Below are positions 11,470 to 17,896 of a stretch of DNA of 64,000 bases, piece by piece. Within the stretch, counting starts at the first letter, position 1. Every line of letters starts with the position of its first letter. The notes beneath the pieces are model-generated. The model did not search any database, had not been told where the DNA came from, and worked only from the letters and a program-made list of their open reading frames with translations. Position numbers and translations under genes: made by a program. Origin of the DNA: Pseudomonadota bacterium. Lineage in GTDB: Bacteria; Desulfobacterota; Desulfobulbia; Desulfobulbales; Desulfurivibrionaceae. The DNA lies in contig JAHJRQ010000016.1 of NCBI GenBank assembly GCA_018830485.1, forward strand, positions 1 through 64,000, written 5' to 3'.

Positions 11470-11817
11470 ATGCTTGAAGTAACAGAGCAGGCGGTTGTTA
11501 AACTGAAAGCGTACCTGGCCGATAATAATATCGATTCTGCCGTACGTATTGCCCTGATGCAGGGTGGCTGAGCAGGGCCCTCTTTGGGATTGGCTCTGGA
11601 TGAGCCAAAAGAAAATGATGCAACCTTTGAGCATGGCGGAATTAAGTTCCTCCTGGATAATAATCTCAGCAATCAGTGTGGAGTCATCAAGGTAGACTTC
11701 ATCGAGGCCGGACCCCGTTCCGGTTTCGGCATCTCCTCGGCCAAGCCCCTGGGCGGCGGCGGGGGGAGTTGCGGCAGCTCTTGCGGCAGCGGAGGCGGCG
11801 GTACCTGCGGCTGCTGA
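11470..11817 (+). CDS. IscA/HesB-like selenoprotein (in-frame TGA = Sec34)
   Basis: A 115-residue A-type iron-sulfur carrier-like protein whose codon 34 is TGA (11569-11571). Reading continues in frame to a TGA after CGC at 11815-11817. Both halves make one fold: RIALMQGG-Sec-AGPSLGLALDEPKEND, then IEAGPRSGFGISS and a Gly/Cys-rich tail with C101, C105, C113 and C115. Sec takes the place of the first conserved cysteine of the family (GGCSG-type motif), an Fe-S ligand. C70 is also present. A GAGGAG ribosome site precedes the ATG, and a bSECIS hairpin starts one base after the TGA. SelB is encoded 4.2 kb away. HesB-like selenoproteins are known from bacterial selenoproteome surveys. A pseudogene is unlikely, because the reading frame and composition stay coherent after the TGA. 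Confidence 0.9.
11569..11600 (+). promoter_or_regulatory. bSECIS element directing Sec insertion
   Basis: One base after the UGA, CAGGGCC (11573-11579) pairs fully with GGCTCTG (11592-11598), with one G-U pair. The 12-base apical loop CTCTTTGGGATT contains a GGG run 15-17 bases after the UGA. A stem just after UGA with G in the apical loop is what SelB needs in bacteria. The hairpin is read as codons as well. Confidence 0.8.
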
Positions 11818-11840: not shown

Positions 11841-11871
11841 AAAAAACCCTGGCCTCGGCCGGGGTTTTTTT
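11841..11871. terminator. Bidirectional terminator after the selenoprotein gene
   Basis: A stem of about 14 bp (AAAAAACCCTGGC with GCCGGGGTTTTTT, one T-G pair) with A and T tracts on the two sides. It ends the selenoprotein transcript and the convergent cytochrome gene. Confidence 0.85.
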
Positions 11872-14338: not shown

Positions 14339-15313
14339 ATGTCAACGTGCAGCAGTGGGACCTGTGGCAGCAAGAAAGCCAGCGGCTGCGGCTCCGCCGA
14401 TGCGGCGGTGGCCCAGCAGAATACGGCGATCGCCGCCTCTCTGGACCGGATCAAGAACAAGATCCTGGTGATGAGCGGCAAGGGCGGGGTGGGCAAGTCC
14501 ACCGTTTCGGTGAATTTGGCCTTGGGGCTGGCGCAAAAGGGATACAAGGTCGGCCTGATGGATGTCGATCTCCACGGCCCGGATATTGTCCGCATGCTCG
14601 GCATGCCTGGCCGCATGGACGGCGAGCTCACCAAGGACGGCAAGATGCCGCCCCTGCAATACAACGACACGCTCAAGGTTATCTCCCTTGAGAGCATGAT
14701 GGAGAACCGGGATGATCCCATCATTTGGCGTGGGCCCCTGAAGAATCAGGCGATCCGTCAGTTCATCGCCGATGTGAATTGGGGCGATCTGGATTATCTG
14801 GTCATCGACGCGCCTCCGGGCACCGGCGACGAGCCCATGACCGTGGCCCACACCATCAAGGATGCCAAGGCTCTGGTCGTGACCACCCCCCAGAATATCG
14901 CCCTGGCCGATGTGCGGAAATCCATCAATTTTTGCAAGCATGTCTCCATGAAGATCCTCGGCATTGTTGAGAATATGAGCGGCTTCATCTGCCCGCATTG
15001 CGACAAAACGGTGGATATCTTCAAGACCGGCGGCGGCGAGCAACTGGCCACGGAATTTTCCGTGCCTTTCCTGGGCCGGATTCCTGTGGACCCCAGGGTG
15101 GTTGTCGCCGGGGATGACGGCAAACCCTATCTCTCTTCCGGGACCACGAGCCCGGCTGTGCAGGCGTTTGAAGCGTTTCTGGCCAAGGTTGAGAAGGAGC
15201 TGCCCGTGCATGCCGCGGCTGCGTCCATCCCCATGGCCAATCCTTTGGCCAAGGCTGGATCGAGCTGCGGCTGCGGCGGCGGGCCCTGCAACCCCAATAC
15301 CTGTGACTGTTGA
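14339..15313 (+). CDS. Mrp/NBP35-family iron-sulfur carrier ATPase
   Basis: A 324-residue P-loop ATPase of the Mrp/ApbC/Nbp35 group, which binds and transfers Fe-S clusters to apoproteins in the cytosol. The deviant Walker A KGGVGKST is at 48-55, the MDVDLHGPDI segment near 77 follows, and CPHC (218-221) is the cluster-binding pair at the dimer interface. Extra cysteines sit at the N-terminus (CSSGTCG, GCGS) and in a C-terminal tail (CGCGGGPCNPNTCDC). GGAGG lies six bases before the ATG, which decides against an upstream in-frame ATG at 14309. It heads the long operon towards selB and hemB. Confidence 0.93.
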   Translation: MSTCSSGTCGSKKASGCGSADAAVAQQNTAIAASLDRIKNKILVMSGKGGVGKSTVSVNLALGLAQKGYKVGLMDVDLHGPDIVRMLGMPGRMDGELTKDGKMPPLQYNDTLKVISLESMMENRDDPIIWRGPLKNQAIRQFIADVNWGDLDYLVIDAPPGTGDEPMTVAHTIKDAKALVVTTPQNIALADVRKSINFCKHVSMKILGIVENMSGFICPHCDKTVDIFKTGGGEQLATEFSVPFLGRIPVDPRVVVAGDDGKPYLSSGTTSPAVQAFEAFLAKVEKELPVHAAAASIPMANPLAKAGSSCGCGGGPCNPNTCDC

Positions 15314-15970: not shown

Positions 15971-17896
15971 ATGCGGGAGATCGTCCTCGGCACGGCCGGC
16001 CATGTGGACCACGGCAAGACCAGTCTGGTCCGGGCCCTCACCGGCATTGACACCGACCGGCTGAAAGAGGAGAAGAAGCGGGGCATCACCATCGAGCTCG
16101 GCTTTGCCTTTCTCGATCTGCCCTGCGGCCACCGCCTCGGCATCATCGACGTGCCCGGCCACGAGCGGTTTGTGAAGAACATGGTGGCCGGCGCCACGGG
16201 CATCGATCTTTTGGCCTTTGTCATCGCGGCGGACGAGGGGATCATGCCCCAGACCAGGGAGCATTTCGAGATATGCCGTCTACTCGGAGTGAAGCGGGGG
16301 TTGGTGATCCTCACCAAGAAGGACATGGTGGATGCCGAGTGGCTGGCGCTGGTGCAGGAGGATGTCCGCCAGTTCCTGGCCGGCAGCTTTCTCGAAGATG
16401 CGCCCATGGTCGCGGTTTCCTCCACCACCGGCGAGGGGCTGGACGAGGTCCGGCAGGTGCTCGACACCATGGTCCGGGCCAGCGAGTTTTCCGAATCCCA
16501 TGGCCCGTTCCGGTTGCCTGTTGATCGAGTTTTCAGCATGAAGGGGTTCGGGGTGGTGGTCACCGGCACCTCCATCTCGGGCCGGATTTCCGTGGGCGAG
16601 GACATCACCGTCTACCCCCAGGGCCATACCGCCAAGATCCGCGGCATCCAGGTGCACGGTCAGGACGTGGATCTGGTCGAGGCGGGCAAGCGCACCGCCA
16701 TCAACATCCAGGGGCTGGACACCGAGATGCTCGGACGGGGCAACATGCTCGCCACTCCGGGGACCCTGGCGCCCTCCTATCTGCTGGACGGAGATTTTTT
16801 CTATCTCTCCGGCAACGCCAAACCCCTTAAAAACAGAAGCCGGGTGCGGGTGCACATCGGCACCGCCGAGATCATGGGCCGTATCGTTCTGCTGGAGGAT
16901 GAGGAGCTTGCTCCCGGTAGCCGGACCAACGTACAGATCCTGCTGGAGGAGCCCTTTGGCGCTTGGCCCGGAGACCGCTATGTGGTGCGGAGCTATTCGC
17001 CCGTGGCCACCATCGGCGGCGGCGTGATCTGGAACGGTTCCCCGCCCAAGCGGCGGCGTTTTAAGGAGGCGAACAGCGAGATTTTTGGACTGTATCAGGA
17101 GGGTTCGGCCGAGGATATCTCGCTCCTGCACCTTCGGGAGGCCGGGGTTGCCGGGCTCACCTTCGAATCGCTCTGCGTCAAGATGGGCCAGTTCGGCAAG
17201 CGTTTTAGAAAGCTGCTGGATACCCCCATCTCCAGCCGCAGGATCATCATGGTGGATTCCGAGCGGCAGCGCATGGTCGCGGCGGAAATCTTCGAGGCTA
17301 TGGGCGCATCGCTTACGAAGATCCTGGCTGATTTTCACCGGGACAATTCGATGAAGCCGGGCCTTTCCAAGGAGGAGCTGCGTTCCCGCCTGCACACCGA
17401 CATGGATCAGCGTTTTTTTCAATTGCTGCTCAACACCCTGGTCAAGCAGGGGACGATTGTTGTCGATGAGGCAACGGTGCGGCTGACAGGGCATCAGGTA
17501 TCGCTCAAGGCGGATGCCATGAGCATCCGCGCTGAAATGGAGGCCTTGTACACCGAGGCCGGCCTGACCCCGCCCACGGTGCGGGAGGTGCAGGAGCGGT
17601 TTGCCAAGTATCCCGTCCCCCTGGTCCGCGAGGTGCTTGAGCTGCTGGTCCGCGAGCAGGTTCTGGTCAAGACCAGCGAGGATCTTTATTTTCAGAGCCG
17701 GGCCATGGCAACCTTGCAGGAACAGCTCGTGGCCTTTATCAGAAAGGAAGGGGAGATCGACGCGCCCCGCTTTAAAAATCTCACCGGGTTGACCAGGAAA
17801 TTTTCTATCCCCCTGCTGGAGTATTTTGATAAAATTAAGGTGACTATCCGGGTTGGCGACCGCCGATTGCTGCGGGAGCGGCAGCCATCACCATGA
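15971..17896 (+). CDS. selB: Selenocysteine-specific elongation factor SelB
   Basis: A 641-residue translation factor that brings Sec-tRNA to UGA codons by binding the SECIS hairpin. The GTPase domain has G1 GHVDHGKT (10-17), DVPGHE and TKKD. EF-Tu-like beta-barrel domains II and III follow to about residue 340. The C-terminal third holds tandem winged helices ending in [15 protein letters not shown], which bind the mRNA hairpin. Length fits SelB, not EF-Tu. It sits between the MBL hydrolase and hflX, overlapping hflX by ATGA. No selA, selC or selD was seen in the window. A likely client is the HesB-like gene at 11470. Confidence 0.95.

Follow-up and report, generated by a model that had tools for sequence, protein, structure and literature searches.

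HesB-like selenoproteins were described in surveys published from 2005 to 2007, with examples from Geobacter, Syntrophobacter and Desulfovibrio (PMC1242214, PMC1794560, PMC1914089), and they appear again in a 2026 review (PMC13188914). One of them, DVU_1382 of the sulfate-reducing deltaproteobacterium Desulfovibrio vulgaris, is likewise a HesB gene with an in-frame TGA (PMC1914089). Another is the HesB selenoprotein of Methanococcus maripaludis, of the type modeled by TIGR01911 (HesB_rel_seleno), which was identified by mutagenesis and 75Se labeling; its function is not clear, and nitrogen fixation was unimpaired in a mutant with the gene disrupted (PMC11097638).

We analyzed an iscA/hesB-like gene on a stretch of 64,000 nucleotides (the window) from a member of the Desulfurivibrionaceae. 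The features discussed are collected in Table 1. As the sequence-only reading had stated, HesB-like proteins are an established bacterial selenoprotein family, and since members have been in print for so long, the window gene is to be taken as an additional one. It was correctly spotted and belongs to an already catalogued family present throughout the bacterial order, adding an instance and not a kind. Its likeness to DVU_1382, whose host belongs to another lineage, rests on the published description of that gene.

Table 1. Features of the selenoprotein locus and of selB in the window
Feature	Position	Strand	Details and basis
iscA/hesB-like selenoprotein gene (predicted)	11470..11817	+	115 aa, Sec at codon 34; NF038090, PF01521, orthologues in relatives
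In-frame TGA, predicted to encode Sec34 where A-type carriers have their first Cys ligand	11569..11571	+	Order-level Sec copies, Cys paralogues, E. coli IscA alignment
Predicted SECIS hairpin UUGGCUC-UGGAU-GAGCCAA	11590..11608	+	Fold; synonymous invariance in Sec copies only; pairing and covariation
Gly/Cys-rich tail	11770..11814	+	Cys 101, 105, 113 and 115, the first two at the CGC place of A-type carriers; alignments; disordered in model
Intrinsic-terminator-like hairpin 3' of the gene	11851..11866	+	Pattern scan
selB, selenocysteine-specific elongation factor	15971..17896	+	TIGR00475, 355 bits (cut-off 242); SelB winged-helix Pfam domains

Reading frame and family membership

The frame opens with an ATG preceded by a ribosome-binding-like GAGGAG (read from the sequence), has TGA as its 34th codon and closes at a terminal TGA (11815 to 11817). 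A pattern scan found no sigma-70-like promoter for the gene. With the internal TGA read as selenocysteine (Sec), the product (MLEVTEQAVVKLKAYLADNNIDSAVRIALMQGGUAGPSLGLALDEPK...GGGGGSCGSSCGSGGGGTCGC) scored 143.1 bits with NF038090 (IscA_HesB_Se), against a curated cut-off of 85, and aligned end to end (residues 1 to 103 to model positions 1 to 101); the score with the Pfam family PF01521 was 27.2 bits (cut-off 26.3). The name of NF038090 itself flags selenium, and the window protein shows no family-level difference from it. With TIGR01911, which has in common with our protein a Sec within a UxGP motif (PMC13188914), the profile match was weak (41.1 bits, cut-off 66.35), and HesB_rel_seleno is therefore a related yet separate subfamily.

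We searched 58 genomes, that of the window itself and others related to it at levels between genus and order; 56 of them gave a match and 54 a TGA-bearing copy. In an even draw of 247 genomes over the phylum, matches above the cut-off were found in 101, and among the matches listed most have one internal TGA. The best matches were fetched and amounted to 145 distinct copies, with TGA in 113, Cys at the Sec34 site in 31 and one not assignable, counts that by this way of collecting are not unbiased frequencies. None of the homologues ends at the TGA.

The 81 codons past the TGA are conserved at the protein level across homologues, with a dN/dS of ca. 0.1 or less (about 0.00 to 0.06 between the window and same-genus copies, at dS 0.3 to 1.1). 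These low values indicate that the stretch beyond the TGA is translated and useful. The initial claim of an ATG start, a TGA at codon 34 and a family-like continuation was thus borne out by conservation and purifying selection, and the refuting conditions set with it did not arise, since homologues carry either Sec or Cys at that place. Taken together, we consider it very probable that the gene is functional and encodes a selenoprotein of the IscA_HesB_Se family, with UGA decoded as Sec.

Two other accounts of the TGA have to be weighed. An open reading frame with a TTG start exists at 11584 to 11817, so that the UGA might be a true stop followed by a separate 77-residue protein; however, this piece alone reaches only 77 bits with NF038090, below the cut-off, conservation extends to residues 1 to 33, no copy has another stop codon where the TGA stands, Cys homologues are one continuous protein, and the codons of the SECIS (see below) are constrained in TGA-bearing copies only. 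We regard a true stop as highly improbable. Even less credence is due to an error of sequencing or assembly, or to decay of the gene, ideas for which no support was found: the TGA is identically placed in all 95 order-level Sec copies and shared by independent genomes, and dN/dS is low both before and after it. The sequence-only reading had also warned that conventional annotation would yield only an N-terminal stub or a 77-residue fragment from 11584. That fragment by itself does remain under the cut-off of NF038090, but this model is made for exactly this family, so automatic annotation need not overlook the full gene.

SECIS hairpin and selenocysteine decoding

In bacteria, the SECIS has a guanosine in its small apical loop (PMC1088965). 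Shortly 3' of the UGA, the predicted fold has a 7-bp stem with the loop UGGAU at 11597 to 11601, starting 25 nt after the UGA, in agreement with that description. Counted from the TGA, codons +8 (GCT), +9 (CTG) and +11 (GAG) never vary within the 95 order-level Sec copies, and codons +7, +10, +12 and +13 hardly do; elsewhere in the gene the same amino acids use all their synonymous spellings. At these positions the codons vary in the 31 Cys copies. Throughout the phylum, the five core pairs form in all 104 distinct Sec sequences, where 13 sequences show a change from G-C to G-U and 3 a compensatory one from C-G to U-A, the latter probably a single event because all three belong to one family. 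Loops read UGGAU, UGGAC or UGGCU, always with UGG.

The fold energy of the single sequence is unexceptional (z of -1.47), and the case for the SECIS therefore stands on comparison and not on energy. On this comparative evidence the hairpin is predicted to be the SECIS of the gene, and the selenoprotein stands out as a clean case found across the order, its SECIS being unusually rigid. Hairpins further upstream, near the GGGCCC right after the TGA, were also considered as the core; they fold in some copies and were rejected for lack of conservation.

The genome holds the machinery for Sec decoding. Besides selB, which lies in the same window without sharing an operon with the gene, we found tRNA-Sec (71 bits), SelA (617 bits) and SelD (380 bits; G000:C13:497401-498324). 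The selD gene has an in-frame TGA of its own, so SelD would itself be a selenoprotein in this genome. We strongly infer that codon 34 is decoded by SelB and Sec-tRNA under the direction of the hairpin, whose loop begins 25 nt downstream of the UGA. Upstream of selB and an MBL-fold gene, the window also encodes an Mrp/NBP35-type Fe-S carrier ATPase (14342 to 15313) with its own Gly/Cys tail.

Fold, ligands and possible roles

A profile search against solved structures matched E. coli IscA, E. coli SufA and Aquifex AQ_1857; in these alignments Sec34 falls on the first conserved Cys, and the beginning of the Gly/Cys tail on the CGCG region. The AlphaFold model had a pLDDT of ca. 90 for the greater part of the core, 73 near the Sec and <50 for residues 96 to 115. 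Its best PDB matches with Foldseek were IscA, SufA and [2Fe-2S]-IscA (1r94, 1s98, 2d2a and 1x0g at the top, with probability 1.00; E of 3.5e-7 for IscA 1r94). Both comparisons support an IscA-like fold for the predicted product. The proposal that Sec takes the place of the first conserved Cys ligand agrees with the alignment to E. coli IscA.

IscA, SufA and ErpA have the fold and the first-ligand position in common with the window protein, whereas they carry Cys and CGC where it has Sec and C-x3-C plus further Cys. The scores with the three equivalog models were far too low (36, 35 and 32 bits against cut-offs of 151, 136 and 117). The ligand set would be U34 and C101-x3-C105, plus C113 and C115, in place of the canonical C...CGC triad; across copies, the tail cysteines past the core follow as C-x3-C or C-x4-C and then one or two more. 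The four tail cysteines noted at first are indeed there, but without a plain CGCG spacing, so that a metal site here may be unlike the one in canonical A-type carriers.

We lean toward an A-type carrier role, for Fe-S or iron, with Sec34 as the proposed first ligand and two or more tail Cys as the others. The presence in the genome of a U-type scaffold (NifU/IscU-type, NifU_N) speaks for it, together with the finding of no A-type gene beyond the Sec gene and its Cys paralogue. Against it stand the low scores with canonical IscA, SufA and ErpA, the tail spacing, the disorder of the tail in the model, and a gene neighborhood without any pointer to Fe-S assembly. More speculatively, a selenolate might render the donor site more labile or more strongly reducing under anaerobic conditions.

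The same selenoprotein could instead be a small oxidoreductase built on the IscA fold, with Sec and the tail Cys forming a selenenylsulfide/disulfide redox pair and no cluster site. Bacterial selenoproteins whose role is unknown are mostly thought to be redox proteins (PMC13188914), and the tail is long and flexible, with up to four Cys able to reach Sec34. However, Sec sits at a metal-ligand position of the IscA fold with the first tail Cys aligned near the other ligands, and the local motif is GGUAGP, with no UxxC or CxxU beside Sec. We therefore hold the redox pair to be plausible but rather unlikely, and the carrier role to be the better reading.

As for the neighborhood, the 51 loci compared contained only housekeeping genes. 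A divergent phosphofructokinase gene (pfkA) lies beside the selenoprotein gene in 42 of them, and a ClpB-like gene (clpB, named from sequence) is found downstream in 36 but is absent there in the window. Where the locus comes from another genus of the order, these two flank the selenoprotein gene, while the window retains the phosphofructokinase only.

Cysteine copies and tandem pairs

The genome has a second NF038090 member (105 bits), a Cys paralogue on the minus strand (G000:C2:13172-13522; L039:4167-4523) that is 55% identical and reads MQNSCAGV at the site. A PF01521 search of this genome (98% complete) found no A-type member, although it missed even the Sec gene, so its sensitivity at genome scale is limited; TIGR00049 retrieved nothing beyond the Sec gene and this paralogue, both under the cut-off. 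Canonical A-type proteins are present in several other species of the genus, and their absence here could thus be a real loss or an assembly gap. According to published phylogenomics, many Delta-Proteobacteria lack A-type carriers (PMC2682760).

In 11 of the collected loci a Cys copy adjoins the Sec copy. Among cultured Desulfobulbales strains, Desulfogranum mediterraneum DSM 13871 carries copies of both kinds. On a tree of 110 copies, built from few columns and with many weak forks, the Sec/Cys label has to change 8 times, and well-supported branches force no fewer than 4 of these changes. The simplest reading is that Sec copies may have been duplicated repeatedly with a change to Cys. We found no description of tandem Sec/Cys HesB pairs in the literature searched, which was mostly open-access. 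Because the Sec protein and its Cys paralogue were the only A-type-like proteins found in the genome, the Sec-ligated carrier might do the general A-type Fe-S job, and the repeatedly evolved tandem pairs of other genera might be selenium-dependent isoform switches, a proposal that we put forward as a long shot. Such natural Sec/Cys pairs, tandem copies within one genome in the relatives, offer material for studying what selenium contributes to a fold of the Fe-S-carrier type.

The stretch SGCGCGGGGGF of the Cys paralogues was considered as the A-type CGCG ligands, which the Sec forms would then have lost. This was rejected, as alignment with solved structures of the IscA type puts the ligand pair into the C-terminal tail and shows the CGCG stretch to be an extra insert. 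The paralogue of our genome has this additional CGC-Gly insert ahead of the last strand.
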